Origin: Pirellulales bacterium
GTDB lineage: Bacteria > Planctomycetota > Planctomycetia > Pirellulales > Thermoguttaceae
Assembly (NCBI GenBank): GCA_016935315.1
Contig: JAFGRD010000025.1
Coordinates: 1-38,636 of the forward strand
Direction of reading: 5' to 3'
DNA length: 38,636 nt
Shown here: in pieces, positions 5,201 through 38,207 of the stretch
Position numbering within the stretch: the stretch's first letter is position 1
How the letters are laid out: every line of letters starts with the position of its first letter
Program-made: the position numbers and the translations under genes
The notes under the pieces: model-generated
Told to the model about the DNA's origin: nothing
The model's database searches: none
Seen by the model: only the letters and a program-made list of their open reading frames with translations

Positions 5201-8200
5201 GGCAAGGATCGGGTTGAAGTCCCACATGGCGCAATCGGCGTCGACCAGGGACAGCTCGCCGGGCGTATAGATGAGCCGGGCCATCTCGTCGATCAACATG
5301 CCGGTCTGCTCGGGATTGTAGAGCAGGTCACGAATCTCCCGCATGCGGTTGAGATATTCCTGGTTGAGCACGGGCTGGGCGGCCAAGACGCGGCTGCGGA
5401 ACGGCTCGTCGCCGCTGCCGTACATGTTGTTGGCCCAGGTCAGATCGAGATCCCAGGGATGGACCGACCACGCGCCCGTCTCCGGGTTGTGGTAGTAGAA
5501 GTAGTTTTTGCCGTCCGCAATGTCGTAGTGATGGATGGCCTCGACGATCGAGCGGTAACTGTAATACCGTTGCAGATCGAGGTTGCTGCGCCACCAAGCC
5601 AGGCTGGGCGAGCTGCTGTAGGTGGCCATGAAGGAGTCCAGATCGGACCGGTTGGTCGGCTGCGTGGGACCCTGGTTATTGAGCGTGCCGGTGCCGCCCT
5701 CCATCTTGTAGAAGTTGCCGTCGGCCAGGCCGTGCTCGTCCAACAGTCGTCCGTCGGGCTGTTCGGTGACCAGGTACAATCCCTGGAAATCACCGCTGTA
5801 CTGGTTCGCGCCCGTCTCGTCGGTGCCTTCGACGATGCGGAACGTGACGTAGTTGGTGTACGGGCTCTCGACCCCCGCCAGGTTGAACAGCTTGAAACCG
5901 ACGGCCTCGAACATCCCCTGCTCGCCACGGTGCCCGAAGTCGCCCTGTTGGATGCAGGCGGAGAAGTTCAGCTTGTCCCACTTGGTGGCGTACTTGTTGC
6001 CGTAGTCGTCGCGGGCCTGGAACTGGTGCCCCCGGTTGAAATCGAACTTCCACATGTTCTTGCCCATGGCGTACCGCCAGACGCCGCCGCGTGCCCGGTA
6101 GCGGATGTGGTCGTACACGTCGCCGTCGTAGATCAGCGTTCCTTCCCACAGGTATTCGCTGCCGCCGTAGCTGCCCGGCGAGGAATACGGAATGTTCATG
6201 GCATCTTCGTGATGCTGCCGCGTGGTAATCAACTGGTAGACGGGGAGGCTCTCGAGCAACTCGGAGCTGTACGTGACCTCGGTCGCCCCCGGCCGGGCCG
6301 AGCCGGTCCATGACGGAACGCCATCGTAGACGTAGTAGGCGAAGTTGGGCTGCGGATCGTCGACGTAGGGCGCCGTGACCGACGCGCCCAGCACGTCCTC
6401 GACGCTGATCCGATAGCGAACCAGCCGCCGATGGACCTGCAACGTACCCGGCAAGACCGCCGTGTAGACGTCGTCGCCCGCGTCGGCGTCGCCGTGCGTG
6501 CCGTCGTCGTACATCGCCACGGTGGTCCAATAGGCCGGGTGGTTGTAGCGGGAATCACTCAGGCTGATGTAGTCGCCCGGATTGACCAACTGGTAGTCCA
6601 GGGCGACGTCTTCGACGCCGTCGGGGTCGGTGACTTTGACTGTAATCGTGACGTCTTCGCCGGCGGTGGGCTGCTCGGGCGCATGTTCGAGCTGCCGCAT
6701 CTGCGGGGGGGCGTTGAACGCATAGACCGAGTTGCGCGAACCCGGCGTTGCCCCAGGCTCACCACCGGTGACGACTCGCAGGTAGGCATCGAAATAGGCG
6801 TCGGTGCTGGCGCCCAAGGAGCTGTTGAGCAACTGCACGGCAATCACGTTGGTGCCGGCAACAAGATACGTGCTCGGGTCGGGGGTCGGTAAGGGAACGT
6901 ACTCGCCCGTCTCCACGCCGCCGGCGGTCGTCGCATAGAACGGCAGCTCGTCGGACGACACGTTGGCGTCGGCCACGTGCCATCCGTTGATCCACACGTT
7001 GATGCCGTCGTCGTAGAGTGCCTCCAGCGACAGCGCACCCACCGCGCTGGGATCGGGAATCTCGAACTCCTTGCGGAAATAGACGGTCGAGTAGCCGCCC
7101 CGCATGTCGGTCAACTCCGTTTCGATGAAATCCTCGCCATAGCCGATGACCCCGTTTCCGCTGAGCCACTGCGAATCGTCGAAGCCGATCTGCCGCCATG
7201 CCCCGGACGTCTCCGAAGGCTCCGCCGTGCCCTTGAAGTAGCGCCACGGGGAGCCTCCGTCGATCAGCGTGTACTGGCCGATCTCCGATCCCACCGACGC
7301 ACGCCAGCTTCCGGCCAGGTCGTTGTCCAGCACCGGGTTGATCAGTTCGATCGAATAGCCCGGCGGATCGCCGACGGTGGGCCAGGGAAAGCCGATCTGG
7401 TAGTCGACCTCGTCCTGCTTGAAGTTGTCCGCGTCGCGCAGCACCAGCGACTCGCCGTCGTTGGACAGGCTGCCCCCAAACGGCCCCAGCGGCAGGGAAA
7501 TCCCGAACTTGTTGCGCACGGCGGTGGGGTTCTCGGCCACTACCACGTAGCCGCCGACAGGCAGGGTCGTTTGCGGCGGGAACGTGTAGGAGATCCCGGC
7601 CGAGAAATACCAGCCGGAAAGGTCCACGTCCTGGCTGCCCGCGTTGTAGAGCTCGACGTACTCGACCGGCTGCGTCTTCACGTCGGGATCGTAGTGGATC
7701 TCGTTGATGATGACCGATCCCACCCGCGGCGCACTGTTGGCCCTGCCCAGCGTCTCGTCGGCCAGCAGCGCGAAGTTGTCGGCCCCGTCGGGCGAGCGGC
7801 CGAAGGTGACGCCGCTGATGGCGGCGCCGAACTCGACGTGGTCGGCAAACCAGAGATCGCCTTGGGTGTCGGTCTGCAGCAGCCAGACGTCATCGCCGCC
7901 GGCGCCGAGGGCAAAATCGTTCGGGCCGCCGGAACGATTGAAATCGTTCTCGTCAAACACCAAGAACGCTCCCGCCGCGACCGTGGTGCCGCCGGGGATC
8001 GCAAACTTGCGGTAGTCGCCGCTCGAATCGCTCAGGTACCAGCCGCCGACGTCAACCGTCCCGCCGGTCGTGTTGTACAGCTCGATGGCGTCGAGACCAC
8101 CGGGCAAGGGCTGCGAAAGCACCTCGTTGACGACCACGTCGGTCGGCCGCATCACCAGGGCCGCGCCGGGAGTGCCGCCGTAGCGGCTGCTGCTGAGCCA

Positions 8201-11200
8201 ATTGGCGCCGTCGTTGTAGTCGCCGGCCGGATCGAGAAGCTCGAGCGTGCTGCCGTTGCCGTCTGCCCGGCCGGGCCACGCCCCTGAATCGCCATAGCGA
8301 AAATCCGCGATCGACTGGCCGAAGCGATCCTTCAGCGTGATCCGCTCGCCGTCGTTGTCCAGACTCCCGTCGTATTGGCCGGCCACGGCGATCTGCGTGC
8401 CGTAGCGGGCCTCGAACCCTTCCCGGTTCCGCACGATCACCACGAACCTGCCTGGCTCGAGTTCGGTTACACCGCTGCCGGTGAAATCAAAGGCGATGCC
8501 GCTGGTGAAGCGCACGCCCGTCAGATCGATCATCTGGTCCGACCTGTTGTGCAGCTCGACAAACTCGAAGTCGTCGTTGTTCAAGCCGGGGTCGATGCCG
8601 AGTTCCACGTCGATGGCGTCGTGGGGATTGTAGTTCAGCTCCGTTACGGCCAGATTGGCCGCGATGGCCGGATCGCCCACGTAGAAATGCGCGGCATTCA
8701 ACGCCGACCACTTTCCGCCCAGCAGTACCCGCGACTTGACCAATGTGGAATGCTCGATCGGAATCGGCGAGGCTCCGAAGATCAGCGCGTCCGGCGCCAC
8801 GTTGCCGCCGGGCAGCCGCGGGTCGGAGCCGTCCAGCGTGTAGTAGACGACGCCCGCGGGGGCACCGATCGAGAGCGCGAAGCCTTGGTCCACCTGGCCA
8901 CCATGCTGGCTGTATGCGGGCGCGGCGACGCCGGGGTACAACGGGGCAAACGAGCCGTCCCGCAGCGTGGTAACGCGCAACTGTTGGAGCACGATCTGCG
9001 TTCGCCCGGGAAAGAAGCCGTCGACCATCTCTTCGATCGCGCTGAGCCAGTCGTACTTGTCCAGCGGCGAAGCGGGCCGTTTGGCGTCGCCCCAGCGCGC
9101 CGACTCGGCGATGATCGCCATGTCAATCTGATCCGCCCGGGCCTGCAAGCGGGCCGTCGCCCGCTGCGGCGTCAACAGCCCGTCGTTGAACAGGTGCTCG
9201 TGGGCATGGTCGGCGAACCGCAGCCGGTACTCGGGATGGGCCATCAGTTGCTGGTGGAGCCACTGCGGATTGCTCTTTTCGAACTGGTCGCCCGCCGAGA
9301 ACGGGCCGGTGCGGTCTTCGGCGCCCACGGTCAAGGTGTGCTCCGCGTCGTGAGCGAAGAACTGGAATCCCTCCTCGCCGTGGCGATCGCGCACCGCGTA
9401 CCAGTTCCGCGGGCTGGTATTGCCCAAGAAGGACGAGATCGGGCCGTCGCGGTCGCCCGTGTAGAAGATCACCAGCATGTAATCGATCAGGTTGTCGACA
9501 TCCAGCAGCACGGGATAGCCGGGATTTCGGGTGCCGTCGGGATTGAGACCTTGAGCCCGATAATAGGCCCCGTCGGTGGCAAACCCGGCGCTGGCCTGGT
9601 TCCAGAGGTCTTGCCAGGCGTCCAGGTTGCCGTCGGTGGCGTGGATCGTGTAACCGGTGTCCGGATCCACCTTGACCACGTCGTAGTCGTCTCGCTGGCC
9701 GCCGAGGTAGGACGCCGCGTAGGAGGCTTCGCTGCGTTCCTGGCTTTGGTACAGGCCCCAGTACTGGCCGTTGATGTAGAGATGATAGTAGTTGCTGCGC
9801 GTGTACGGTTGGCCCATCGCGCCTTGAGTGTCGCGCGAGAAGATGTCGCGAACCATGGCGTTGCGCCCGTCGCCCTCGAAGGCCCAGGAGTAGTTCTGGC
9901 TGGTGCGCAGATCGAGCTTGTCGAACGTGTCGACTCCCTCGTCGCCGAACAAGGGGTATGCGAGCTTGGCGTCGCCGTACTCGGCGCGGAAGAACAGCCG
10001 GAAGGCGTGTTTGGGATTGGTGCCCATGCGGCTCACGCCGCCGCGGATCCGCAGCCCGGCGTCGATTTGGAACCCGTCGGTGCCGTCCGGGTAGATCAGC
10101 TCGACCGAAGTCGGACGCTCCCACGCGCGCCCGTCCTGCTGGGCGTTGACGTAAATACCGGCACCGGCGTCGACCAGGTTGCCCAAGTCGGTTACCAGAG
10201 AGATCGTAGGAATCGCCGTCAGGGCGGCTTCGAGCTGAGGTCCCCACACCGGATCGTTGACGATATCCGGGTCCATGCCGTAGTCGAACGTCTGCATGTT
10301 GACCAGGCCGGAGGGCCATCCGGCGGCCGTTGCCGTGCCGGGCGACTGGGTCGACACGTCGTCGAGGAACACGTACGTCTGGGTATCCACGTTGGTGGGG
10401 AGATACCCGGGCTTGAACGCCGCGGCCCGCAGTGTGGTCGTGTGGCTGATGGTCAACGGCCCCGTGTACAGGGTGCCGCCGGCTTCGGTTGGTTCGCTGC
10501 CGTCGGTGGTGTATCGGATCGTGGCCCCGGACGTATCCGTGCGGATGGTCACGGTAATCGGGTCGTTATAGAAGCCGCGGTCCACGTCGAACTCGGTGTC
10601 GTCGACGAAAGCAAGGTACCCGGCCGCGTTGGGACCACCCGGGGTCGGGGTGGCGAAGTAGCGTTGGGCGCTCTCCACTCCCGTTCCGGCCAACTTGGCG
10701 ACCACAAGGCAATTGTCGTCCGCAACGCTGGCGTTGAGCCCGTGGACGGCCAGCACGTTCTTGCCGCTGTGCAGCTCGCCGAGGAATTCGCTGATGTTGA
10801 TTTCCTCATATTGCAGCGAGTCCTCGATGCTGCGCGAGGTCGTGGCCGCCGAATTCCATTGCGGCGGCTCGGGCGCGTTGCGGCGGGCAATCTCCCGCCC
10901 GTTGAGATACGCCACGAAGCCGTCGTTGTACTTCATCTGCAACTGCAGTGCGCCGATCGACGACGGATCCACCAGCTCGAAGGCCATTCGCGTCCAGAGG
11001 GAGGCGTTCACGCCGTGCATGTCGTCCCCGACGTCGGTCTGGATCGCCGCGGCCAGGCCCGGCGGATTGAGCTCGAATCCGACGCCGTTGGCCATGGCTG
11101 GCCCGCCGCCAGGGGCGAAGGGCGTCGTCAGGCCTTCGTTCTGCTGGCCCATCGTGATCGGCCCGACGAACGCCCAATCGGTGGCGTCGCCGTGATCGGC

Positions 11201-12304
11201 GTAGCCGCTGCGCTGCAGGGAGAGGCCCGAAGCCGTGGCGACCAGCTCGGCGTCGCCCTCCCAGGCGCCGGCGGCGGTGATGTCGAAACCGTTGACGTTG
11301 ACTGTCAGCGAGGCGATCTCCGCAGGGCTGTAGCCCCAGACGACAAAATCGACCACGCCCCCGGTGTCATCGACGATCATTACCCAACCGGGTCCGGACG
11401 TCCTCCATGCAATTCCTCCGCCCCAGTAGTGATCCGGATCCGTCGCTTCGTCGCGTCGATACAGGACCTGATCGGAAGCCATCGAAGGAGGCAGCTCCCA
11501 GACAATGGTATTCACGTCGTTCACATCGGCAGGCAACCCGGCCGCATCGTTGACTGCCACGACCCAGCCCGACGTATCGATCGCATGGGCGGAGACATTC
11601 TGAATCTCGACGAAGTCGTCGCCGGTACCCGCTTCCGTGATGAGTATCCGGGCTTCGTAACGGCCGCCCACCCACGAGGAGTCGATGAAACCCGAGGAGG
11701 TCCAACTCGTTCCCAGCGAGGCCTCGGCGGCGGTGGGCACCAGGTAGCTCAGCTCCGATCCTTCCGAAACCATCGTCGTCGTGTTCTGAACCAAGCCGTA
11801 CGAGACCCCGTAGTGCTGGTTGGGATACTCCGGCGCGAACTTGTGGGCCACCGTCGTGCCGTCGGGCCGAATCAGGGCCAGGTACTCGCCGCCGCCGTCG
11901 AGTTGGAAGTTCGTGTGCAGCTCGGCCGGGTCGGTGCGGTCCTTCTCCGACGCGAACACGACCAGATAGCCGCCGGGCTCCACCAGCACCTCGGGAAACT
12001 CCCACTTCGTCCTCTCGGCAAGCGCGTCCGTCAGATACCAGCCGTCGAGGTTGACCGTCGTGTCGGTCGGATTGTGGATTTCGATCCAATCGGGGAAGTC
12101 GCCGTCGGCGTCGGCCAGCGTGCCGTCGTTTTCGGCCATGAACTCGGTGATCAGCAGCGGACCGGCGTCGAGCATCATTCGTGGTTCGAGCGTCTCAAAC
12201 GCCTTCGCGGTGCCTCGCCGAGGTCTGGATTCGGCGCTCGCCCGCCCGCCGGCCCGCAGGGCGCGATGTGCCACCGATATCCGTCTCGCGAAACTGCGCA
12301 ACAC
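2285..12304 (-). CDS. Giant exported LEPR protein: lamin-tail, CotH and dockerin-like domains
   Basis: This 3,339-residue protein is probably exported, in an unknown role. After a basic N-terminus it carries the planctomycete LEPR motif (LEPRMML, 39-45). About eight lamin-tail domains follow, recognisable by repeated ITEF/VNEV/INEI-type strands, EL(Y/H)N and GWYLSD motifs. There are two chitobiase-C-terminal-like repeats (TTDGSEP and TLDGSDP). Two CotH-kinase-like regions lie at about residues 755-1070 and 2070-2420; the second has HPWDLDLTW, matching the metal-binding motif of CotH kinases. The C-terminus (about 3195-3255) has paired NASDMLLARNN/NATDMLIARNN units, as in dockerin type I repeats. 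An in-frame ATG lies at 12457, but the GTG at 12304 has a GGGGAGG site and a promoter placed to give a leader, so it is preferred. A block of three lamin-tail domains is duplicated within the protein. The function is not known; cell-surface adhesion or spore-coat-like protein phosphorylation are possibilities. Confidence 0.88.
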   Translation of the reverse strand: MLRSFARRISVAHRALRAGGRASAESRPRRGTAKAFETLEPRMMLDAGPLLITEFMAENDGTLADADGDFPDWIEIHNPTDTTVNLDGWYLTDALAERTKWEFPEVLVEPGGYLVVFASEKDRTDPAELHTNFQLDGGGEYLALIRPDGTTVAHKFAPEYPNQHYGVSYGLVQNTTTMVSEGSELSYLVPTAAEASLGTSWTSSGFIDSSWVGGRYEARILITEAGTGDDFVEIQNVSAHAIDTSGWVVAVNDAAGLPADVNDVNTIVWELPPSMASDQVLYRRDEATDPDHYWGGGIAWRTSGPGWVMIVDDTGGVVDFVVWGYSPAEIASLTVNVNGFDITAAGAWEGDAELVATASGLSLQRSGYADHGDATDWAFVGPITMGQQNEGLTTPFAPGGGPAMANGVGFELNPPGLAAAIQTDVGDDMHGVNASLWTRMAFELVDPSSIGALQLQMKYNDGFVAYLNGREIARRNAPEPPQWNSAATTSRSIEDSLQYEEINISEFLGELHSGKNVLAVHGLNASVADDNCLVVAKLAGTGVESAQRYFATPTPGGPNAAGYLAFVDDTEFDVDRGFYNDPITVTIRTDTSGATIRYTTDGSEPTEAGGTLYTGPLTISHTTTLRAAAFKPGYLPTNVDTQTYVFLDDVSTQSPGTATAAGWPSGLVNMQTFDYGMDPDIVNDPVWGPQLEAALTAIPTISLVTDLGNLVDAGAGIYVNAQQDGRAWERPTSVELIYPDGTDGFQIDAGLRIRGGVSRMGTNPKHAFRLFFRAEYGDAKLAYPLFGDEGVDTFDKLDLRTSQNYSWAFEGDGRNAMVRDIFSRDTQGAMGQPYTRSNYYHLYINGQYWGLYQSQERSEASYAASYLGGQRDDYDVVKVDPDTGYTIHATDGNLDAWQDLWNQASAGFATDGAYYRAQGLNPDGTRNPGYPVLLDVDNLIDYMLVIFYTGDRDGPISSFLGNTSPRNWYAVRDRHGEEGFQFFAHDAEHTLTVGAEDRTGPFSAGDQFEKSNPQWLHQQLMAHPEYRLRFADHAHEHLFNDGLLTPQRATARLQARADQIDMAIIAESARWGDAKRPASPLDKYDWLSAIEEMVDGFFPGRTQIVLQQLRVTTLRDGSFAPLYPGVAAPAYSQHGGQVDQGFALSIGAPAGVVYYTLDGSDPRLPGGNVAPDALIFGASPIPIEHSTLVKSRVLLGGKWSALNAAHFYVGDPAIAANLAVTELNYNPHDAIDVELGIDPGLNNDDFEFVELHNRSDQMIDLTGVRFTSGIAFDFTGSGVTELEPGRFVVIVRNREGFEARYGTQIAVAGQYDGSLDNDGERITLKDRFGQSIADFRYGDSGAWPGRADGNGSTLELLDPAGDYNDGANWLSSSRYGGTPGAALVMRPTDVVVNEVLSQPLPGGLDAIELYNTTGGTVDVGGWYLSDSSGDYRKFAIPGGTTVAAGAFLVFDENDFNRSGGPNDFALGAGGDDVWLLQTDTQGDLWFADHVEFGAAISGVTFGRSPDGADNFALLADETLGRANSAPRVGSVIINEIHYDPDVKTQPVEYVELYNAGSQDVDLSGWYFSAGISYTFPPQTTLPVGGYVVVAENPTAVRNKFGISLPLGPFGGSLSNDGESLVLRDADNFKQDEVDYQIGFPWPTVGDPPGYSIELINPVLDNDLAGSWRASVGSEIGQYTLIDGGSPWRYFKGTAEPSETSGAWRQIGFDDSQWLSGNGVIGYGEDFIETELTDMRGGYSTVYFRKEFEIPDPSAVGALSLEALYDDGINVWINGWHVADANVSSDELPFYATTAGGVETGEYVPLPTPDPSTYLVAGTNVIAVQLLNSSLGASTDAYFDAYLRVVTGGEPGATPGSRNSVYAFNAPPQMRQLEHAPEQPTAGEDVTITVKVTDPDGVEDVALDYQLVNPGDYISLSDSRYNHPAYWTTVAMYDDGTHGDADAGDDVYTAVLPGTLQVHRRLVRYRISVEDVLGASVTAPYVDDPQPNFAYYVYDGVPSWTGSARPGATEVTYSSELLESLPVYQLITTRQHHEDAMNIPYSSPGSYGGSEYLWEGTLIYDGDVYDHIRYRARGGVWRYAMGKNMWKFDFNRGHQFQARDDYGNKYATKWDKLNFSACIQQGDFGHRGEQGMFEAVGFKLFNLAGVESPYTNYVTFRIVEGTDETGANQYSGDFQGLYLVTEQPDGRLLDEHGLADGNFYKMEGGTGTLNNQGPTQPTNRSDLDSFMATYSSSPSLAWWRSNLDLQRYYSYRSIVEAIHHYDIADGKNYFYYHNPETGAWSVHPWDLDLTWANNMYGSGDEPFRSRVLAAQPVLNQEYLNRMREIRDLLYNPEQTGMLIDEMARLIYTPGELSLVDADCAMWDFNPILASGYVNSSKAGHDRFYRPPGSSGKQTFADMVQLMKNYVVSRGAYIDSAILSDRALIPDQPSVSYVGEFGYPVDGLTFRSSAFRSPGGNSFAGMAWRIAEVTDRESPDFDPTQPRRYEIDATWESGELATFHDTIAIPGEDLEVGKTYRVRVRMKDSAGRWSHWSAPVQLVAGGAVGPLATGLRITEINYSPHDPTAAELAVDPSFQSEDFEYVELYNTTDQTLGLGGVAFTDGIDFDFSDGNLTELVPGAYVVVVKNLAAFQARYGTAIPVAGTYSGKLSNEGEHIELTDPFERIIHDFTYSPSGSWPGRADGKGSSLEVLDTSGDYGDSENWRASREYGGSPGTAPGPEIGIVVNEVLSHTDDPWTDAIELHNTTGTAIDVSGWYLSDSSGLYQKFRIPAGTNIAAGGYLVFDEDSFNPTPLNPGPTDFALDGAHGDDVWLLETDATGTLLSFVDHVEFPAARSGESFGRWPNGAGDLVPMIERTLDPAQGANSGPRVGPILISEIHYNAGDFAGADDLEFIEICNPTSQPVDLTEWRVRKEIDYNFPMGTMLAPGAALVLVPFDLHQTDKLTAFRDYYGITDSVVLLGGYSGLLSNGGARVQLQRPDAPPAEEPDFIPRLLEDEVIYDDEGDWPTDPDGGGPSLHRLHEGGWGNDAGSWSSAPPTPGWTWFSPTAARVAGRYVFYNQSSFDGNAAAANAADDNAVATDKEPLLPGGTATFANYTSFSRGINGLMVDIEGLPEGSTPGADDFRFRVGNNNTPDAWTDGPTPLAIAVRRGAGTDGCDRLTILFGDDAVRGQWLQVTVLATANTGLADEDVFYFGNAVGEAGNSAADAKVNASDMLLARNNPRTFLNPAPIDFPYDFNRDARVNATDMLIARNNQTHFLNALWLITVPDAVAAAAGQPELSPDAEGVAEAKQATDRVVGAKQSSHDPAWLYEFDRIGARQRSPGQGDVDEETLDQLLAGYPLF

Positions 12305-12309
12305 GACGA

Positions 12310-12316
12310 CCTCCCC
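12310..12316 (-). promoter_or_regulatory. Ribosome binding site deciding the giant gene's GTG start
   Basis: On the minus strand GGGGAGG is followed by 5 nt and then GTG (12304-12302), with an in-frame TTG directly after. No comparable site precedes the in-frame ATG at 12457. Confidence 0.6.
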
Positions 12317-12466
12317 TGGGTCTGAGATTGGATTCCCGGACGCAACGCCTTGGCTCGTCGCTGAGCGCCCGACCTTGAGCAGTGTGATGACGAAGAACTG
12401 TTCCGCCTGGGCGCACGGCCCAGCGAAAGGCACAAACAGCCCCCCATGAGGCTGCACCCCAGATAC

Positions 12467-15643: not shown

Positions 15644-17050
15644 ATGGCCAAACGAGGCATCCTCTCGCGGATCGGGCCCGCGTTCATCGTCGGTGCGTGC
15701 ATCATCGGTCCGGGGAGCGTGACCCTGATGTCGCGAACCGGGGCCAATTACGGTTACCAACTCATCTGGCTATCCCTGCTCTCGGGCGCCATGATGGCCG
15801 GCTTCCTGGCCGTTTTCATGCGATTGGGGGTCTACAGCGACGAGACCTTCCTGACCTTGACCGCCAACCGGCTCGGCCGGTGGTACGCCGTGCTCTGTGG
15901 CATCACGTTGTTCTCGGTCGACGCTGCGTTCCAGTTCGGCAACGCGCTGGGTGTCAAGGCGGGCATGCAGGCGATTTTCCCCGCAGTACCGGCCTACGCA
16001 TGGCCCTTGTTGTTCACCGCCACGGCCATCCTGTTTCTGTTCGGCCTGAAGCGGATCTACGGCGTGCTTGAGAAGATGATGACCTTCTTCCTCGTGTTCA
16101 TGGTGGCGGCGTTTCTGGTCAATCTGCTTTGGGCACTTCGGGCCGAACCGGATCTTCCCAAGACGCTGGCGGCCATGGCGCAGGGTGCATTCATTCCCAG
16201 CCTGCCCAAGGGCGTCAATTGGGTCGTTCTCGGAGGGCTGGTCGGCACCACGCTTGTGATCGTGGCCGCGTTCCTGCAGCCCTACCTGGTGAAGGCCAAA
16301 GGCTGGACCGAGAAGGACTTCGCCAGCGGCGTGACCGATACGGTGTTGGCGTCGATCATGCTGACCCTGGTGGGAACCATGATCATGATGACCGCGGCCA
16401 CGGTGCTCTACCCGGGCGACGGGCAGGTCAACTTCGAAGTGATGATCACCCAGCTAGAGCAAGTCTTCGGCGCCCATGCCCGCCTCGTCTTCAGCATCGG
16501 TTTCTTCGCGGCGGCATTTTCCAGCTTCATCACCAACTCGGTCATCGGCGGCGTGCTGCTGAACGACGGGCTGGGACTGGGCGGCCGTCTCGATTCGCTG
16601 CCCACGAAGATCTTCGCCACGCTCGTGCTATTGATCGGCATGGGCACGGCGCTGGGTATCGTTTACGCGGAAGCGAACTACCACCGCGACCTGACGGTTC
16701 AGGCAATTACGGTCGGACAGGCGGTGACCCTGCTTGCCCTGCCGCTGGGCACGATCGCCATGGTGGTGGTGCTTTTCGACGCCAATTCCACGCGGGGCCG
16801 CGCGCTGCCGATCTGGGCGAAGGCGTTCGTGCTCTTCGGCGCAACGGTGATCCTGGGAGTCGCGGCCGTCGTGTTCGTCAAGCTGTTTTTCTCGGGTGAG
16901 TCGCGCGTGCCCGACAAACCAGCACACTCCGTCGCCGCGGAAGACACGCTACCGTGCGGTCTGGACTCAGACCAGGGACTCGTTATCGAACAGGTTGGAC
17001 ATTCTTGTGAGGGAGGAGAATCATGGCCGAAGATTCGGGTTGGTATTTAG
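15644..17050 (+). CDS. Nramp-family transporter with altered metal-binding site
   Basis: The 468-residue integral membrane protein has about eleven hydrophobic helices and the overall layout of Nramp (MntH-type) divalent-metal transporters. In helix 1 the canonical DPGN motif is replaced by IGPGS (Gly22-Ser25), so the metal-binding Asp and Asn are missing. In helix 6 the usual A-x-x-M-P-H type segment reads [11 protein letters not shown] (about 204-214), without the metal-ligating Met. This is therefore not an ordinary Mn/Fe importer. It may carry another ion or solute. The ATG follows AGGA at about 8 nt. The 50-residue tail after the last helix is hydrophilic, and its final 28 nt overlap the next gene, suggesting translational coupling. 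Confidence 0.8.
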
Positions 17051-18030
17051 CGATGGGGTCGAAATCAGTGGGTCCCATGTCGTTGCCTCAGTTGCAGCAG
17101 CGGTTGTGCGGCGGTTCCGGGATGAACACGCTGGTGTACGGACCGGGGGTGAGCGAGTGGACCGAGGCGAAGCACATCGCGGCAGTTGCCGAAGGCGTCG
17201 GCCCCAACGCCGCGCCTCCGCCGCCTCCCTCGGCGCGCCGGGCCGACGAAATCGACTACGAGATCTTCGGCGAAGAAATGCAGTACGTCGAGATCACGCT
17301 CGACCCGAATGAGATGGTGCTGGCCGAAGCCGGGGCCATGATGTACATGGACCCCGCCATCACGATGGAAACCGTCTTCGGCGATCCCTCCAAGCAGGAC
17401 ACCGGCCTGTTGGGCAAATTCATGTCGGCCGGAAAGCGGATACTCACCGGCGAATCGTTGTTTATGACGACCTTCACCAACTCCGGGTCGCAGCGGGCCG
17501 CGGTGGCCTTCGCCTCGCCCTATCCCGGCAAGGTCGTCCCGATGCACCTCGACCTGCTCGGAAGCGAACTGATCTGCCAGAAGGACGCGTTCCTCTGCGC
17601 CGCCCGGGGAATCCAAATCGGCATCGCCTTCCAGAAGCGAATCGGCGTCGGGCTGTTCGGCGGCGAGGGCTTCATCATGCAACGGCTGACCGGCGACGGC
17701 ATCGCTCTGGTGCATGCCGGCGGCACGCTGATGCGACGGAGCCTGCAAGCCGGCGAAACGCTCAAGCTCGATACCGGCTGCCTGGTGGCCCTGAGCCCGA
17801 GCGTCGATTACGACATCCAGTTCGTCGGTGGAATCAAGAACACGATCTTCGGCGGCGAGGGCCTCTTCTTCGCCACGCTGACCGGGCCGGGCGAAATCTG
17901 GTGCCAGTCGCTTCCATTTTCCCGACTGGCGGGCCGGATTCTTGCAAATGCCCCCCGATCCGGGGGAAGTAAAGGCGAGGGTTCAATCCTGGGTGGCCTG
18001 GGCCGAATGCTGGACGGCGACAACGATTAG
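17023..18030 (+). CDS. GYF_2-AIM24 (TIGR00266) family protein
   Basis: The 335-residue protein has two parts. Residues 1-55 ([19 protein letters not shown]) match the GYF_2 domain, a small module common in planctomycete and other bacterial membrane-linked proteins. After a proline-rich linker (PPPPPS, about 66-71), residues about 75-310 match the AIM24/TIGR00266 family, recognisable by [29 protein letters not shown] and LDTGCLVAL. The bacterial role of AIM24 proteins is not known; the mitochondrial homologue supports inner-membrane organisation. The ATG has a strong GGGAGGAG site and lies inside the 3' end of the Nramp-like gene. No signal peptide is seen. The stop codon falls in a 16-bp tandem repeat. 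Confidence 0.85.
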
Positions 18031-18056
18031 GGCCTGTCAAGATTAGGGCCTGCCAA
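18025..18056 (+). repeat. 16-bp tandem duplication at a stop codon
   Basis: GATTAGGGCCTGTCAA (18025-18040) is followed directly by GATTAGGGCCTGCCAA (18041-18056), with one difference. The TAG in the first unit is the stop codon of the AIM24 gene. The second unit begins a copy of the dispersed 3'-end repeat. Confidence 0.85.
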
Positions 18057-18079
18057 GAAACAAGTTGGGCATAATCGGT
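18043..18079 (-). repeat. Dispersed 3'-end repeat, copy 1
   Basis: On the minus strand the core reads TGCCCAACTTGTTTCTTGG and runs into CCCTAA. It aligns with copies at 19128-19176 and 38121-38170, including the flanking GGTGG on the plus strand. It lies just after the AIM24 stop codon. Confidence 0.55.
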
Positions 18080-18189: not shown

Positions 18190-19143
18190 ATGATTGACAA
18201 GCAACGAACCTGTTACGCCGAGAATCGATGGCGAAGGGACGCCCGCCCCTTTTTACGCCGGGCTGGCCTGGCGACCATGCTGCTGGCCTTGCTGGGTGTC
18301 CTGTTGTTCGGCCAGCCAATCGCCGCCGGCCCGCAACAGACCTCCGATTCCGGCGCCAACGCGTCGGCCAGCCCCAGCGACACAGCCCCCGCTCCGGCGG
18401 ACGCGGCGACCGAGACGGCCAAGGCTGCGTGCTGCCCGGTCTGCAAGCCGTCTCGCCTGCGATGCGGCGTGCTTCGGGCGAGGCTTCGCAATCTGTGCCG
18501 GCCCTGTTGCTGCCCTCCGTGCCGCCACCGCTCGGAGCCGGCCGCCGAGAAGCCCGATCCCTACGCCTGGCAGGATCTATTCGACGGCAAGACGCTCGAA
18601 GGCTGGAAGGTACCCGAGTTCGGCGGCGAGGGCGAAGTCCACATCGACGACGGCGCAATCGTGCTCGAGATGGGCAGCGAGATGACGGGAATCGTCTACG
18701 TCGGCGGCGAAGTGCCTCGGGAGAATTACGAATTCGCCTGGGAAGGCGCGCGGCTGGACGGCATCGACTTCTTCGCTACGGCCACCTTTCCCGTCGGCAA
18801 GGACGAGTGCTCGCTGGTGACGGGGGGCTGGGGTGGCATGGTCGTGGGAATCTCGAGCGTCGACTTCTACTACGCCGACGACAACGTGACCACCACCTTC
18901 CACGAATTCAAGGACAAGCAGTGGTACAAGTTTCGCGTTCGCGTTACGACCGGGAAGATCGAGGCATGGATCGATGGCGAACAGGTGGTCGATTTGGAGC
19001 GGGAAGGCCGCAAAATCGGCTACCACGACGCCGTGTACTTGTGCCGCCCGCTGGGCATCTCCGCCTGGGTGACCAAGGGCGGTGTGCGGAACATCCGCCT
19101 TCGCAAGCTGCCGCCGTCGGATTCCCCGCCTTTCCACCCATAA
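18190..19143 (+). CDS. DUF1080 (3-keto-disaccharide hydrolase-like) protein with Cys-rich linker
   Basis: The 317-residue protein begins with a basic segment and one hydrophobic helix (about 25-45), a signal peptide or membrane anchor. An Ala/Pro/Ser-rich stretch follows, then a very unusual cluster of nine cysteines in 31 residues (81, 82, 85, 92, 103, 106, 107, 108, 111). Residues about 125-310 form a concanavalin-like DUF1080 domain: DLFDGKTLEGW, FFATATFPVG, GGWGGMVVGISS and VRVTTGKIEAWIDG. Some DUF1080 proteins hydrolyse 3-keto-glycosides; activity here is not established. The ATG follows GGGAGGA by 9 nt, so the in-frame TTG at 18172 is less likely. The domain is homologous to the C-terminus of the 21809 protein. 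Its last codons and stop lie in a dispersed repeat. Confidence 0.85.
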   Translation: MIDKQRTCYAENRWRRDARPFLRRAGLATMLLALLGVLLFGQPIAAGPQQTSDSGANASASPSDTAPAPADAATETAKAACCPVCKPSRLRCGVLRARLRNLCRPCCCPPCRHRSEPAAEKPDPYAWQDLFDGKTLEGWKVPEFGGEGEVHIDDGAIVLEMGSEMTGIVYVGGEVPRENYEFAWEGARLDGIDFFATATFPVGKDECSLVTGGWGGMVVGISSVDFYYADDNVTTTFHEFKDKQWYKFRVRVTTGKIEAWIDGEQVVDLEREGRKIGYHDAVYLCRPLGISAWVTKGGVRNIRLRKLPPSDSPPFHP

Positions 19144-19176
19144 GAACGCCCAACTTGTTCTTTTACGAGTCCTTAG
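19128..19176 (+). repeat. Dispersed 3'-end repeat, copy 2, between convergent genes
   Basis: The sequence runs from CCGCCTTTCCACCCATAA through GCCCAACTTGTT to TTTTACGAGTCCTTAG. It supplies the plus-gene stop (TAA, 19141-19143) and the minus-gene stop (19173-19175). It is nearly identical to the reverse complement of 38121-38170. Confidence 0.8.
19142..19164. terminator. Weak hairpin between convergent genes
   Basis: AAGAAC and GTTCTT pair around a 9-nt loop and are followed by TT. In the repeat copy at 38121 the stem is AAGAAT/ATTCTT, a compensatory change, which supports a folded element. It could end transcripts from both sides. Confidence 0.4.
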
Positions 19177-21623
19177 CCGCCGATCTCCCTTAGCATTCGC
19201 CGGATTTCCTCGACGGCGGCCGTTGCATCGTCGGGCACGATCTCCAGTGCGGCGCGCAACTCGGCGACGGCTTGCTGCTTCTGGCCGCGCCCGCTCAGCG
19301 CGAGGGCCAGGACGATGCGGGCACGGACCATATTGGGCCAGATTCTCAGCACGGATCGACAGTGCTTGACTGCCTGATCGTACTTTCCCTGCCGGGTCAG
19401 GGCGTAGGCCAAATTGACGTGTGCCTTGAGGTATTTCGGATCGATCCGCAACGCCTGCTCGTAGTGGCGGACCGCTTGGTCGAGCTGCCCGGGAATCCGC
19501 AGCAACACGTTGCCCAGATTGTAGTGTGCCACGGCCGAGTGGGGCTTCAGCTCCAGGAGGTCCAGGTACTGTAGACGGGCTTCCTCGGGGCGGCCGAGCT
19601 TCGTCAACGCCTCGCCCAATTGCAGGCGCGTGGCCACGTGGTTCGGGTTCAGTTCAACGGCCTTGCGCAGGTGCCCGACGGCGCGGGCGGTCTCTTCGCG
19701 CTCGGCCAAGAGCATTCCCAGGTAGAAGTGTGCCAGGCAGTGGTCGAAGTTGATTCGCAGAGCGGCCTTCAGGTGACGCTCGGCCGCCGCCACTTCTCCC
19801 ATCCGCCAGCAGGCGTCGGCCATCTGGCAGCGCACGTCGGCGTCGGAGAGGTCCGGCACCATCGCCGGATGGTCTGCAACCGGCGAATCCGTCGCGGCCG
19901 CCACGATCAGGCCTGGAAAGCGGCTCCAATCGTCCGGCGGGGCGGCGAAGTCGTGGATGGGCAGCTCCGGCTTCCAGGTATAGCCCCAGTACGGCGCGAT
20001 CGGCCGTTTCAGCTCGTACGAATCCGCTCCCCGCAGGAACAACAGTTCGCCCAGCTTTTGGCGAAGGTGGGGCACGGCCACCACGAGAACCTCCGGCCGC
20101 GCCCGCTCGACAAACAAGTAGTCGGGCAACTGCTTTAACAGATCGGGACGGACTGGTTTCGCTTCGGTCAACTGGTCGCAATAGTGCAGCTGGGGAACGT
20201 AGAACATCGCCGGATAGGCCAGGTACGGTGGCCAGATTCGGACGGTCGTCCCGGCGGGAAGCTCCTTCAAGAAGGCTATCATCGCCTTGTTGCCCGTCTG
20301 GTAGTCGTCGAAAACCTCGCACCAGTATCGATACCAGATCGGCGGCCACGACGGGTTGGTCTCGTCGGCCCGGTCCGCCAGGAAGCCCAGGTGAAAGAGA
20401 TTCGTGGCCAACAGAATCAGCAACGCCGCGGCGCCCAGCGTCCGGGCCCATCGCCAAAGGATCACCACTCCCAAGGCGCCCAACGCGGCACCGACGGCCA
20501 TCAACGGCACCACGTATCGCATCTCGGCGGTCGGACCGCCCCCCATGTCGGCCGGCGTCAGCAGGGCCGCTACCGCGACATATCCGAGGATCACCGTCAC
20601 CAGGATGACGCCGCGCCGAGCAATCGGGCGCAGCCGCCGAAGCCGTTTGGACTTCTGCGGCAACGGCAGCCAAGGGACGATCAGCACCGGCACCAGGCAC
20701 CAGGGAACAAACTCGTGCGTGCCCAGATCGCGAAAGTACCAGAGGAAGTTGTCCCGGGCGTGCGGCCAGTAGGGTACTTCCGTTCCGCTGTCGTAGAAGG
20801 CGTCCTTGACCAGGTAGTCGGCCGAGAAGGGATTGGCCGCAATCCATGTGTGGAGCCCGTAAGACACGGTAACCAGGGCGATCCATCCCAACAGCACGTA
20901 CTGAGTCGGCTGTCGATAACGCCGATCGAAAAAGAACAGCGGCAACGTGACCAGCGCCGCCGCCGCGTTCAGGTAGTGGGTCGAAAGCAGCAGCAACACG
21001 GCCGTCGCGGCGCCGGCAAAGCGGCACAGCAGTCGGCCGTCGAGCCGACGGCTCCGGGGCACCAGGGCGCGCGTCGTTTCCGGGGTCCAGAACATCCATA
21101 CCAGGACGGTGAGCGTGACGCCCAGAGCATAGTAGCGACAGTTGCGAATGAACAGCAGGTACGCCGGACTGAGGGCAAGGATCAGCGGCGGCAGATACCA
21201 GGGAAAACGCCGCCCGAGAAAACGCCGCAGCCATAGGGCCAACAGCCCCACGCCTGCCACGCCGGTGAGCACAAACGGGATGCGGCCGCCGAAGGTGGTC
21301 TCGCCGCAGAAGAGCATGCCCAACGCGGCCACATAAGCAGGCAATGCCGGAACGCGCAGCTCCTTGCCCAGGTCGTCGCCCAACGATCCACCGTAGGAAT
21401 AGCCCAACAGGTTCGTCCCGTCCCAAGCGGTCAACCGGTGGAATTTCAGGAGGTTTCGGGCGTAGATGGCCGTATTGGCCTCGTCGTCCCAGAAGATCTG
21501 GTTGTCCAAGCCGGCAACACCGAATCCGGTGGCCAGCGACATGGCCGCGACGACGGCACCGACACGCAAGACGCGCCGACGGCGAAGAAGCCCCTCCGCG
21601 CGTGCAGCTATCCCATTCTCCAT
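19173..21623 (-). CDS. GT39-like polytopic membrane protein with TPR tail
   Basis: The 816-residue protein has many hydrophobic helices in residues about 20-450. Its N-terminal loop carries a WDDE motif (45-48), as in GT39/PMT_2-type glycosyltransferases that use lipid-linked sugars. A periplasmic-type segment follows, and residues about 590-816 contain six or seven TPR repeats, such as AHYNLGNVLL and AHVNLAYALTRQGKYDQAVKH. The protein may transfer a sugar to an exported acceptor, with the TPRs binding a partner. The ATG at 21623 fits the promoter 34 nt upstream; an upstream in-frame extension is not supported. The gene is divergent from another membrane/TPR gene. Its stop codon lies in the dispersed repeat. 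Confidence 0.8.
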   Translation of the reverse strand: MENGIAARAEGLLRRRRVLRVGAVVAAMSLATGFGVAGLDNQIFWDDEANTAIYARNLLKFHRLTAWDGTNLLGYSYGGSLGDDLGKELRVPALPAYVAALGMLFCGETTFGGRIPFVLTGVAGVGLLALWLRRFLGRRFPWYLPPLILALSPAYLLFIRNCRYYALGVTLTVLVWMFWTPETTRALVPRSRRLDGRLLCRFAGAATAVLLLLSTHYLNAAAALVTLPLFFFDRRYRQPTQYVLLGWIALVTVSYGLHTWIAANPFSADYLVKDAFYDSGTEVPYWPHARDNFLWYFRDLGTHEFVPWCLVPVLIVPWLPLPQKSKRLRRLRPIARRGVILVTVILGYVAVAALLTPADMGGGPTAEMRYVVPLMAVGAALGALGVVILWRWARTLGAAALLILLATNLFHLGFLADRADETNPSWPPIWYRYWCEVFDDYQTGNKAMIAFLKELPAGTTVRIWPPYLAYPAMFYVPQLHYCDQLTEAKPVRPDLLKQLPDYLFVERARPEVLVVAVPHLRQKLGELLFLRGADSYELKRPIAPYWGYTWKPELPIHDFAAPPDDWSRFPGLIVAAATDSPVADHPAMVPDLSDADVRCQMADACWRMGEVAAAERHLKAALRINFDHCLAHFYLGMLLAEREETARAVGHLRKAVELNPNHVATRLQLGEALTKLGRPEEARLQYLDLLELKPHSAVAHYNLGNVLLRIPGQLDQAVRHYEQALRIDPKYLKAHVNLAYALTRQGKYDQAVKHCRSVLRIWPNMVRARIVLALALSGRGQKQQAVAELRAALEIVPDDATAAVEEIRRMLREIGG

Positions 21624-21663
21624 GGACTCATCTCGCCGAAGACGCACAACGGACCGTCTTTCG

Positions 21664-21692
21664 AGCCTATACGGGTCCGCTCCGATTGTCAA
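21664..21692 (-). promoter_or_regulatory. Promoter of the GT39-like gene, shared -35 region
   Basis: A perfect TTGACA (-35, 21687-21692) is followed after 17 nt by TAGGCT (21664-21669), a weak -10. The -35 bases overlap the -35 of the divergent plus-strand promoter. Confidence 0.45.
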
Positions 21693-21714
21693 CGCTTTGC
21701 AGCGGGGATAGGAT
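21686..21714 (+). promoter_or_regulatory. Promoter of the membrane/TPR/DUF1080 gene, shared -35 region
   Basis: TTGTCA (21686-21691) and TAGGAT (21709-21714) have a 17-nt spacer. The -35 overlaps the TTGACA of the opposite promoter, so the two genes could compete for polymerase or share control. Confidence 0.45.
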
Positions 21715-21808
21715 GATGGTAGACGTTGCCGGCGCAAGCGGGACCGGGGTGACTTGCGGTCGGCAGAAAGCGTCGGCGGGGATTCCTCGAAACCATCACG
21801 GAGCGTCC

Positions 21809-24430
21809 ATGGCCTCTTCAGCCGATCCCACGATGCCGCGTCGGCCATGGGCGGATCTGCTCACCGCGGCTGCCCTCGCCGCCCTGTTGGCAGCGGCCGT
21901 GACGGCCGTCTTCGGCCGGGTTGCCGATTACGGGTTCCTGGCGTGGGACGACACCACACACGTGACCGAGAACCCGTATCTGAATCCCGCCCCGTGGGAG
22001 AGCGTAAAGCACTTTTGGCAGAAGCCTTATTGGGGACTCTATGCTCCGCTGAGCTACACCTTCTTCGCCGCCGAAGCATCGGTTTTTCCCCGGCCCTTGC
22101 CCGACGGCGGCTGGGGGCCGAACCCGATGGTCTTCCATCTGGGCAGCCTCTCGCTGCACATCGGCTGCGTTCTGCTGGTGTTCGTGATTCTGCGGCGACT
22201 GTTCCGCCACGATGGGGCTGCCTGTCTCGGGGCGCTGCTGTTCGGCTTGCACCCGGTACAAGTGGAGTCGGTGGCATGGATTTCGGAGACCCGCGGCCTG
22301 CTCTGCGGGCTGTTTTCGCTGCTGGCCCTTTGGCAGTACCTGGGCTACGCGGACACGTCGCAACCTGGCAGCAGCGCCGCAGTTCGCTATGCCCTCGCCA
22401 CAGTGTGCTTCGTGCTGGCGTTGTTGTGCAAGCCCGCGGCGGTGGCCCTGCCGTTGCTGGTTGCCGTGCTGGATTTCGGTGTCTTGCAGCGGTCGGTGCG
22501 CCGGGTGTTGTCGGCGGTGGGCCCGTGGCTGCTTGTGGCGGCTGCGTGGGTGCTGATCACGAAGATGCAGCAGCCGGACCGGCAATTGCCGTTCGTCTCG
22601 CCGCTCTGGGCGCGACCGCTGCTGGCCGGCGACGCGCTGGCCTTCTATGCCACGAAGCTGGTTGTCCCCTGGCCGCTGGGACCGGACTACGGGCGTTCTC
22701 CCGAGTGGGTCATGCGGCAAGGGGGCTTCTATGTCGCCTGGCTGTTGCCGGCGATCTTGTTAGCGATTCTGGGATGGTTGAAGCACCGTCGGATCTGGCT
22801 GACCGCCGCGGGTGTCTCGATCGCTTGGGTCCTGCCGGTGCTGGGACTGGTGCCATTTGTCTTTCAACGGGTTTCCACGGTTGCCGATCGCTACCTGTAC
22901 CTCGTGCTGTTGGGCCCGGCCCTGGCGCTAAGCTGGCTACTGGCACGCCACTGGAATCGCCGCACCGTGGTCCCGACATCTTGCCTGCTCGGCCTGCTGG
23001 CGATTCTCAGCTTCGTCCAGACCGGATATTGGCGCGACAACGACGCCTTGCTGAATCAGGCGATGCAAGTCAACCCGCACAGCGGAGTGATGCGACAGCT
23101 CCGGGGTTTCCTGTTGACGAGACAGCGGGAATATGGCCGAGCCATCGCGCTGCTGCGCGAGACCGTCGAGGATCACCCGCAACTGGTGGAAGCACACCTC
23201 GGCCTGGCGGCGGCCCTAACGGCCGACGGCCAGGCCGAGGAAGCAATCGATGCGCTGAAGAAGGCCGCGAGGCGATTCCCCCGCGAGCCGTTGGTCGAGA
23301 GCGAACTGGGCGTCATCTTGGCCGGGCAAGGGGCGCTGGACGAGGCGGAGGGGCATTATCGACGGGCGCTGCAAATCGATCCGCACTGCGTTCGGGCCCA
23401 TTTGACCTGGGGCAAACTGCTGTTGGATCGCGGCCAGCCGGCAGCGGCGGTCGAGCATTTCCGCAAGGCGCTCGATGTGGTCCCCAACCACGTGGCGGCG
23501 CGCGTCAATCTGGCCGTGGCGCTCCAGGCGTTGAACCGACCGGACGAAGCACGCTATCATTACCTCCGCGCGATCCAGCTCCGTCCCCACTGGCCGGTGG
23601 CGCATTACAACCTCGCGAACCTCCTGCGATTGCAGGGGGCCGCCGACGAGGCCGTGCGGCATTATCGGGCGGCCCTGAAGGCCGATCCGGATTACGTCGC
23701 CGCCCGCATCAACCTGGGGACCACGCTGCTCGAACAAGGCACGACGGCCGAGGCACGCGACCATCTCCGCCGGGCCCTCGCCCAGGTGCCGCCCGATTCG
23801 CCGGAGGCCAGACAGATTCGCGATCTGCTGCCGCAGCAAGACCAATGGAGAAGCCTGTTCGACGGCAAGCAGCTCGGCGCGTGGCAAGTCGTCGAGTACT
23901 TCGATTTCATCCACCATGGCCAGGTCGAGGTGAAAGAGGGCACGCTCGTGTTGGGCCGGGGCAAGCCGGGAACGGCCGTCCGCTACACCGGCGAGGTCCC
24001 GGAAATCGACTACGAGATCTCGCTTCAGGCGATGCGGGTCGACGGCGAGGACTTCTTCTGCGGCATGACGTTTCCCGTGGGCCGCTCGGCGCTGACGCTG
24101 ATCGTCGGCGGCTGGCGCGGCCCCGTCGTGGGCCTCTCGTGCATCGACGGCGAGCCGGCGGTGGACAACGAGACGTGCTTCTATCAGGACTTCCAGAAGC
24201 TGCGATGGTACGCCATTCGCCTGCGGGTCCAGCGGGAGAGGATTCAGGTCTGGATCGACGAGGAGAGAGTGGTCGACCTGCCGACACACGACCGCGAGTT
24301 CACCATCTGGTTCGAGCCGGAAACGGCCCTGCCGCTGAGCATCGCCACTTGGGATACAACCGGCGCGCTGCGAGATATCCGTGTGCGGCCCTGCCGGGAG
24401 CATCTCGACCCGTCGCAGAGCCCGGATTGA
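21809..24430 (+). CDS. Membrane glycosyltransferase-like/TPR/DUF1080 fusion protein
   Basis: The 873-residue protein joins three modules. Residues about 15-400 are a polytopic membrane domain with AWDD (45-48) in the first loop and [11 protein letters not shown], the pattern of TMTC/PMT-like O-glycosyltransferases. Residues about 410-670 hold seven or so TPR repeats ([20 protein letters not shown] and similar). Residues about 679-873 form a DUF1080 domain: [35 protein letters not shown] and [14 protein letters not shown]. That domain is clearly homologous to the DUF1080 protein at 18190. The start ATG follows CGGAG by 5 nt; upstream in-frame codons have no such site. It may bind or modify exported glycoproteins. 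The reaction is unknown. Confidence 0.85.
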
Positions 24431-31857: not shown

Positions 31858-32439
31858 GACCGGCTGTCGCTGGACTTCACGGGCCGCCGGCCGATGCTCC
31901 GGATTCCGGCCACCCTCGAAAAGGGCAACCAGGATCGCTTTCTGCCCGTGTCCCCTGAGTTTGCCGAGTTCCTGCTGGCCGTCCCCAAAGCCGAGCGATC
32001 GGGCCCCGTGTTCGACCCCAAGCCCCGACGTGTCAAGGGTGGTCGGTTGCAGGCACATCGGGTCGGGGAACTGGTGGCGGCAATAGGCAAGGCCGCCAAA
32101 ATCATCGTGGACCGCCGTCCGAAGCGGGACCCAGAGACCGGGGAAGTCCGGGAGGTTGTCAAGTACGCCAGTGCCCACGATCTGCGCCGGTCCTTCGGGG
32201 AACGGTGGGCGCCCCGGGTCATGCCCCAGGTACTGATGGAGCTGATGCGCCACGAGTCGTTCGAGACGGCGCAAAGGTACTACGTGGTCAGGAACGCAAG
32301 GACGACGGCCGAGGCCCTCTGGAGAGCCGACGGAGAAAACGGGGCCAGTAACACTTTTGGCAACAGTGCAGCAAGATCATCGTCCGCCAACGAGAAAGCC
32401 CCGCCGCAACCTATTGGTACGACAGGACTTGTAGAGTAG
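31858..32439 (+). pseudogene. Tyrosine recombinase (integrase) remnant
   Basis: The frame continues from the transposase remnant into the catalytic half of a phage-type integrase. Recognisable parts are RPMLRIPATLEKGNQDR, HDLRRSFGERW (the H-x-x-R box) and LMRHESFETAQRYYV, with the second His and the nucleophilic Tyr. The N-terminal arm and the first catalytic Arg are missing, so it is not functional. The TAG stop (32437-32439) is part of the tRNA-Met 3' end. About 125 bp before it (31731-31857) cannot be assigned. Confidence 0.7.
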
Positions 32440-32510
32440 CGGCGCAGGGACTCGAACCCCGGACACGCGGATTATGATTCCGCTGCTCTAACCAACTGAG
32501 CTACGCCGCC
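32437..32510 (-). tRNA. tRNA-Met (CAT anticodon)
   Basis: All four arms can be drawn: an acceptor stem GGCGGCG/CGCCGCT with a G-U first pair, the D arm AGCTCAGTTGGTTAGAGC, an anticodon stem GCGGA/TCCGC with loop ATCATAA, and a T arm with TTCGAGT. The anticodon is CAT. The first pair is not the unpaired type of initiator tRNA, so it is most likely elongator Met. An Ile2 (lysidine) tRNA cannot be fully excluded. CCA is not encoded. The 3' end is the probable integration site of the neighbouring decayed element. Confidence 0.93.
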
Positions 32511-33828: not shown

Positions 33829-33854
33829 GCCCAGGTGCTCTTACGAGTCCCTAG
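33829..33854 (+). repeat. Dispersed 3'-end repeat, copy 3, between convergent genes
   Basis: GGCCCAGGTGCTCTTACGAGTCCCTAG aligns, with a 2-nt gap, to the copy at 19148-19176. Again the repeat ends in the minus-strand gene's stop codon (CTA at 33851-33853). It is more diverged than copy 2. Confidence 0.5.
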
Positions 33855-37851: not shown

Positions 37852-37921
37852 CGGTTAGACTCCCGAGATAATCACTTCAACACCGCTGGGGACTCGCAAC
37901 GGAATACGAAAGGTGCTGGAT

Positions 37922-38064
37922 GAAACGTCGATCCCGCCGATTTCCCATCGGGAAAGACCCGCGAAACCCAAAGGGCTCTCCAGTCCGCATACGGTGAAAG
38001 CGCAAGGCCGCTTTGCGTCCTCGCTCTCTCGGACATGCCCATTTGCTCGCTCACGAGTCCTGAA
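37922..38064 (+). repeat. Direct repeat of about 140 bp, copy A
   Basis: It begins GAAACGTCGATCCCG, contains GGTGAAAGCGCAAGGCCGCT, and ends in a diverged version of the dispersed 3'-end repeat (ATGCCCATTTG...CACGAGTCCT). Copy B is at 38208-38352. Confidence 0.65.
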
Positions 38065-38120: not shown

Positions 38121-38170
38121 TTAGGACTCGTAAAAGAATGAGTTGGGCATTCTTATGGGTGGAAAGGCGG
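38121..38170 (-). repeat. Dispersed 3'-end repeat, copy 4
   Basis: Read on the minus strand it runs from CCGCCTTTCCACCCATAAGA through TGCCCAACTC to TTTTACGAGTCCTAA. It matches copy 2 at about 46 of 50 positions and overlaps the left arm of the 17-bp palindrome. Confidence 0.8.
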
Positions 38171-38193: not shown

Positions 38194-38207
38194 TGCTCGC
38201 CCCGTGT

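Follow-up and report, generated by a model that had tools for sequence, protein, structure and literature searches.

A dispersed repeat flush with stop codons in a Pirellulales bacterium very probably forms the inverted termini of a non-autonomous DNA transposon

Introduction

Several families of short dispersed bacterial repeats, including RUP, Correia/NEMIS, ERIC and Nezha, are portrayed in the relevant passages of PMC3733652 and PMC2229807 as non-coding, multi-copy and mostly intergenic units of 70–300 bp that are bounded by terminal inverted repeats (TIRs) and form hairpins. Most such MITE repeats are A+T-rich and carry TA motifs, as a passage of PMC2229807 puts it. A different kind of repeat, the REPs, occupies spaces that separate convergent or tandem genes, close to their 3′ ends; the termini of GTAG REPs "often provide" a TAG stop codon (PMC3733652, section on these repeats). 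Among insertion sequences, members of the IS1031 group prefer TNA as a target and generate 3-bp repeats, according to the passage on this group in PMC12016507.

In this study, we are discussing a repeat from a Pirellulales bacterium, based on a window of 38,636 nucleotides (the whole of the analysed stretch of contig JAFGRD010000025.1) and on the draft genome to which it belongs. A preliminary description of the window had interpreted the repeat as a selected 3′-end element, perhaps a bidirectional terminator or RNA-processing site, that supplies the stop codons of neighbouring genes. Here, this candidate regulatory element is replaced by a concrete transposon family: the repeat is very probably the TIR of a MITE, a non-autonomous DNA transposon, whose multiplication in the lineage took place long ago. 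With RUP, Correia/NEMIS, ERIC and Nezha, as they are characterised in the passages cited above, the element has all of the listed features in common; in contrast to the A+T-rich repeats of PMC2229807 (as far as the passage goes), its target is TNA/CTNAG, and its position is flush with stop codons. The literature searched yielded no account of it, and within that literature it is a new MITE family; the notion of stop-supplying repeats itself is already in print for REPs (PMC3733652, same section).

Architecture and copy number of the element

At up to three mismatches, CAACTTGTTCTTTTACGAGTCC occurs 140 times in the draft genome (172 contigs, 7.10 Mb), and its reversed pattern does not occur at all. 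As stated earlier, the repeat is not random debris, and its placement at gene 3′ ends is non-random. Many matches to the 22-bp core are arranged as inverted pairs approximately 202 bases apart. Thirteen of these pairs, 11 of them full length, were aligned end to end and yield a consensus of 224 bp, composed of 27-bp TIRs with the termini GGACTCG...CGAGTCC and two subterminal hairpins. Searched with a profile built from 11 of the 13 copies, those of full length, 832 kb give 38 matches, and the reversed sequence gives none. Pairwise identity among these 11 copies ranges from 79 to 93% (mean 87%), a level of divergence that suggests the spread of a MITE-like element in an old burst.

Detailed examination covers 2.30 Mb (32%) of the 7.10-Mb genome, on contigs chosen partly for containing copies. 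In these 2.30 Mb, 128 element ends are present at up to five mismatches, against one in the reversed control; over the genome, full or truncated ends number in the hundreds. None of the full copies examined contains a called gene; as is characteristic of MITEs, the element is short, non-coding, constant in length and bounded by TIRs.

Two minor observations concern solo ends. Their breakpoints seemingly cluster at the inner edge of the TIR (18–35 bp) and at the hairpin tips (45–62 bp), a pattern which is uncorrected for detection bias and from which nothing is concluded. Furthermore, a second repeated segment (GGCCTAAGTGCCGTTTTTTCAGAAAG or similar) lies just inside three solo ends, namely near 94463 and 104234 of G000:C51 and at L029; this segment is perhaps another element family.

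Target site and mobility

For the analysis of flanking sequences, full copies are the 18 inverted pairs of 205–240 bp in the 2.30 Mb. Exact 3-bp flanking repeats are found in 8 of the 18 (permutation mean 3.0, p = 0.0007) and are absent in 10; the middle flank base is equal in 13 (permutation mean 6.4, p = 0.0009), and identical flanks at lengths 2 and 4–9 do not occur in any of them. Read outward, the flanks are T-N-A-G, which corresponds to a C-TNA-G target. The combination of TIRs and a target duplication identifies the element as mobile, a duplicated triplet being the hallmark of DDE-type transposons; a pair of filled and empty sites within one species was not encountered. In the mechanism proposed, an IS5/IS1031-type transposase would have moved it in trans, duplicating TNA upon insertion.

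The likeness to the IS1031 group of the IS5 family, as presented in the passage of PMC12016507, comprises the TNA target, the 3-bp duplication and short TIRs; the latter, however, measure 27 bp in the present element versus 17 bp in ISLrh, the member given in that passage. A further difference is that the present element has no transposase gene, and membership in this group is inferred from the target type only.

The search for a parent has been negative so far. A transposase carrying these TIRs was not found in the draft genome, of which 32% was read, so that this is weak evidence. Genome searches with PF01797, PF01609, PF13340, PF13359 and PF13586 return one DDE_Tnp_1 and one Y1_Tnp match only, the last three models having no match in the element's own genome. 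Neither match is accompanied by a TIR (at up to eight mismatches) in the surrounding 1.9–3.1 kb; in particular, the single DDE_Tnp_1 match, as the candidate for an IS5/IS1031-type enzyme, has none nearby, and the Y1_Tnp match is weak, situated at a contig end and without a TIR in 1.9 kb. Inverted TIR pairs 0.4–3.5 kb apart, of which there are four in 2.30 Mb, do not enclose a transposase in any instance; their interior genes encode CBS-domain, UPF0047, AIM24 and 3-keto-disaccharide hydrolase proteins, and one pair is devoid of genes. Thus, TIRs in common with an autonomous element, which are likewise expected of a MITE, were not found in these searches. Many MITEs outlive their parent element.

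A different route of mobility would be that of a REP/REPIN system, in which a RAYT (tyrosine) transposase moves hairpins that lie at gene ends, either singly or in inverted pairs. Likeness does exist: a hairpin in each half, inverted pairs along with many single ends, short palindromic repeats near 3′ ends of convergent and tandem genes, and termini that supply stops, as in the GTAG REPs of PMC3733652 (section cited above). Against this stand the constant 224-bp length of the unit, the 27-bp TIRs and the 3-bp target duplication, as well as ends that read GGACTCG and lack a GTAG or CGTC tag; moreover, no linked RAYT was found, the one weak Y1_Tnp match being without a TIR in its vicinity. RAYT mechanisms are not known to leave a constant-length TIR unit with a 3-bp duplication. 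On these grounds—length, TIRs, duplication, absent tag, and a Y1_Tnp match without a neighbouring TIR—REP/RAYT was rejected as the main reading, and we regard it as extremely improbable.

Occurrence in relatives

Besides the element's own genome, a partial match is present in 2 of 146 relatives. Within the family, 3-mismatch matches are found in 7 of 118 members, compared with reversed-control matches in 6. Judged from these comparisons of sequence, the matches in relatives are background and the element appears as a lineage-specific, dispersed, multi-copy one; the search of relatives that had been proposed reveals no conservation of the repeat. In genome_contigs, the exact 22-mer pattern matches a single record, a Desulfobacteraceae MAG; this was discarded as a chance match, there being no element around it and no blastn similarity to the examined contigs.

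Copies in the window

All six copies listed in the preliminary description exist as sequence, those other than 19148–19172 (+), an exact core, and 38124–38145 (−), the 22-bp core with two substitutions, being weaker; what they represent are the ends of at most five elements. Three exact occurrences of the 10-mer TTACGAGTCC are present in the window, where a shuffled window has 0.06 on average; the exact 12-mer GCCCAACTTGTT, present twice, is absent from 200 shuffles.

The repeats at 38121–38170 (−) and 38325–38352 (+), formerly counted as separate copies, are the two ends of one intact full-length element at 38124–38346 (+), which comprises 223 bp with both TIRs and both subterminal hairpins (nhmmer E = 5.3e-65, profile positions 1–223). 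As read from the sequence, the 3-bp target duplication TTA flanks it on either side, at 38121–38123 (+) and 38347–38349 (+); downstream of it, no gene is called in the window. The copy at 38034–38064 is a real repeat sequence, too, but not an independent one, since it constitutes the right end of a decayed second element at approximately 37890–38060 (+; about 171 bp, nhmmer E = 5.4e-23 over 37916–38060). The left end of this element, read from the sequence, is GGACTCGC at 37890; its left hairpin region is gone, and its flanks are TGG and TGA.

A truncated left end occupies 19122–19172 (−; nhmmer E = 8.4e-12, profile positions 2–51) between two convergent genes, the stops of both of which, within 19141–19175, had been ascribed to the repeat. 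This holds for one of them: the CCCATAA of the remnant supplies the stop (TAA, 19141–19143) of the upstream 3-keto-disaccharide hydrolase gene, whose PF06439 domain (Pfam) is present in full and leaves 12 residues to that stop. The stop of the TPR gene (19173–21848, −), in contrast, is a TAA at 19173–19175 (−; TTA on the forward strand) that consists of flanking target bases, a TNA triplet flush with the TIR. The situation at hydA is comparable. Its stop (TAG at 33851–33853, −, reading CTA on the forward strand) and the nearby SASA stop (TAG, 33823–33825) are positioned as reported, but the hydA stop is again made of flanking target bases and not of the repeat core. It is flush with a probable TIR remnant at 33829–33850 (+), which includes an exact TTACGAGTCC at 33841–33850 and to which the profile search gives no match at E ≤ 100.

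Beside the AIM24 stop, for which the TAG at 18028–18030 is confirmed, a weak TIR remnant lies at 18052–18076 (−; profile E = 0.43, exact 12-bp core). The two do not adjoin directly, but are separated by a near-perfect 16-bp tandem duplication (15/16 identical; 18025–18040 and 18041–18056). One more weak TIR remnant, additional to those reported before, is located at 16976–17011 (+; nhmmer E = 8.8e-4) and differs from the 22-bp core by four mismatches; it lies within an Nramp-family ORF (15644–17050), in its 3′ part.

Placement relative to genes

For a quantitative view of placement, genes were called with a purpose-made hexamer caller instead of a standard one. Only 3 of the 128 element ends lie in called coding sequence, although this makes up 86% of the DNA. 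Leaving out these three and one end without an outward gene, 124 ends are scored, and in 33 of these the end directly abuts the stop codon of the outward gene (offset 0 in 20, −1 in 11, +1 in one and −2 in one); the location next to stops that had been noticed in the window is thereby put into numbers. The stops at flush ends are TAA in 15, TAG in 13 and TGA in 5 cases, compared with 191, 559 and 783, respectively, over 1533 called genes. Regarding gene arrangement, 73 ends are found between tandem, 23 between convergent and 13 between divergent genes, where 63.7, 10.9 and 34.4 are expected from non-coding length (p = 8e-7); element ends are, hence, commoner than expected between convergent genes and rarer between divergent ones.

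How strong the preference for stops appears depends on the target model, with an expected flush fraction of 2.3% for the flank PWM, 2.0% for YWRG, 5.2% for TNA, 7.9% for TNAG and 14.1% for CTNAG. Over CTNAG sites, the model nearest to the flanks of full copies, the flush excess is 2.0-fold (33/120, p = 9e-5, the four ends inside gene ends being left out of this zone test), and it is 3.5- to 14-fold over looser models. The flank PWM as a null gives an approximately 11-fold excess, to which little weight is assigned because the palindromic CTNAG target is ignored by it. At 2–20 bp downstream of stops, the excess is 2.3-fold (8 ends) and, thus, about the same as at the flush position; at distances from genes beyond 150 bp, element ends are rarer than expected.

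Target content and purifying selection together explain most of the stop-flush excess, with a residue remaining. In the course of events envisaged, insertion at a native stop would leave the protein unchanged, insertions into coding sequence would be purged, the survivors would accumulate at stop codons and 3′ flanks, and later deletions would reduce full copies to solo ends. Two properties would let the stop survive such an insertion: both TAA and TGA fit the TNA pattern of the target, and the first G of the element makes a cut TA read TAG. As for the residue, the transposition machinery might favour stop-codon contexts beyond the sequence target, using stops as safe harbours, with pausing at gene ends or opening of the DNA there as examples of a means; we consider this rather unlikely. 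Persistence of the 2-fold residue in a complete genome would be an indication of target choice beyond sequence.

The element is a clean example of how a stop-like target (TNA in CTNAG) and a matching first base place an element flush on stops with the protein unchanged. Flush transposon ends on stops can be mistaken for a selected 3′-end signal, and other "stop-supplying" repeats may have an explanation of this kind.

Native or element-supplied stop codons

Eighteen of the 20 offset-0 stops are TAA or TGA. Under the duplication model, an in-frame duplicated TAA or TGA was in frame before the insertion; therefore, these 18 stops are native. The offset −1 stops are composed of TA and the first G of the element in 10 of 11 cases; such a stop would be native if the original target had a G at this position, which the CTNAG motif favours.

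An alternative is that the element truncates genes, thereby creating new stops, and is retained because the truncation is useful. The remnant at 19122–19172 does give its upstream gene the TAA at 19141–19143, and at the 11 offset −1 ends a base of the element forms part of the stop. Yet in 18 of the 33 flush cases the stop is a TAA or TGA target triplet (offset 0). An NCBIfam scan covers 29 of the 33 flush genes and hydA, with the 1941-aa, 81-aa and 77-aa proteins and the TPR gene of the window omitted. Six of the 29 pass the cut-off, and all six reach to within 11 positions of the model end: XerD (reaching position 290 of 290), SelA (454/455), dCTP deaminase (178/180), thioredoxin (99/101), YfiR-like (145/150) and PRK08645 (600/611). 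For 14 of the 29 there is no match at 1e-10, and several others are uninformative. Also hydA argues against truncation, given that two relatives carry orthologues of it without the element (80% and 78% identical) that end at the same final histidine with TGA directly after it. Gene truncation is, accordingly, judged very improbable, and insertion of a MITE at stops that were mostly already there is preferred.

The hydrogenase large subunit (33851–35149, −) is worth a separate remark, as it ends at the final His of DPCxxCxxH. In hydrogenase large subunits, the C-terminal extension is normally cleaved off in maturation. At 16 loci (L177–L192), two hydA C-termini have no extension after the final His and 14 have one; by comparison of these sequences, there seems to be a sub-clade of hydrogenase large subunits without a C-terminal extension.

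Hairpins and the question of a terminator

The reading of the preliminary description, i.e., a selected 3′-end element (a bidirectional terminator or RNA-processing hairpin) placed after genes by its function there, can draw on the stop-codon enrichment (33/124) and on the excess between convergent genes (23 versus 10.9 expected). It can also draw on folding: among full copies that are flush with stops, 7 of 10 fold strongly (z < −2), a level attained by 29 of 250 control ends (p = 5e-5). When the 33 flush copies are pooled, their folding is likewise better than that of the controls (p = 0.0014). In truncated flush copies, however, a fold of z < −2 is seen in 0 of 19 versus 29 of 250 control gene ends (p = 0.24); they fold like ordinary gene ends, and therefore the stem effect is not kept after truncation. 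Full copies may have a secondary effect on RNA 3′ ends. Intrinsic terminators consist of a G+C-rich hairpin with a T-run behind it; a TTTTT within 70 nt occurs at 0 of 33 flush ends and 39 of 1500 control ends (p = 1), which is uninformative since T-runs are rare at control ends, too.

The co-variation of stem bases that had been noted between two copies does not hold up in the larger sample. Across 54 left-type ends, the closing pair of the small stem is T.G in 36, T-A in 10, C-G in 6, C.A in one and G.G in one, and its two sides change without relation to each other (Fisher p = 1.0 for 53 ends). In the left subterminal hairpin (consensus 30–68; 28 of 29 rows), 16 double-changed cells versus 8.1 in shuffles (reached in 0 of 1000) would speak for a selected structure, but 10 of these 16 belong to a single pair and follow subfamily lines; in the right hairpin, the count is 3 versus 0.9 (55 of 1000 shuffles). 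In 10 of 28 copies, both partners of one stem pair of the left hairpin have changed, which could be due to subfamily inheritance or to hairpin-templated repair.

With TIRs and a target duplication marking a mobile element, no fold kept in truncated flush copies, the claimed small-stem co-variation failing, a left-hairpin signal that is mostly one subfamily pair and no conservation of the repeat in relatives, a selected 3′-end element is improbable, and the transposon interpretation is favoured over it.

Other features of the window

A Rfam scan of the whole window returns, at gathering scores, only a tRNA (32437–32510). Below threshold, a group II intron match (RF00029, 29.6 bits at a gathering score of 40, E = 0.0012) is located at 38555–38628 (−), at the contig end, and the assembly may break at this intron-like sequence. 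At 2285–12457 (−), there is an ORF of 3390 aa that contains seven lamin-tail (LTD) stretches together with CotH kinase domains.
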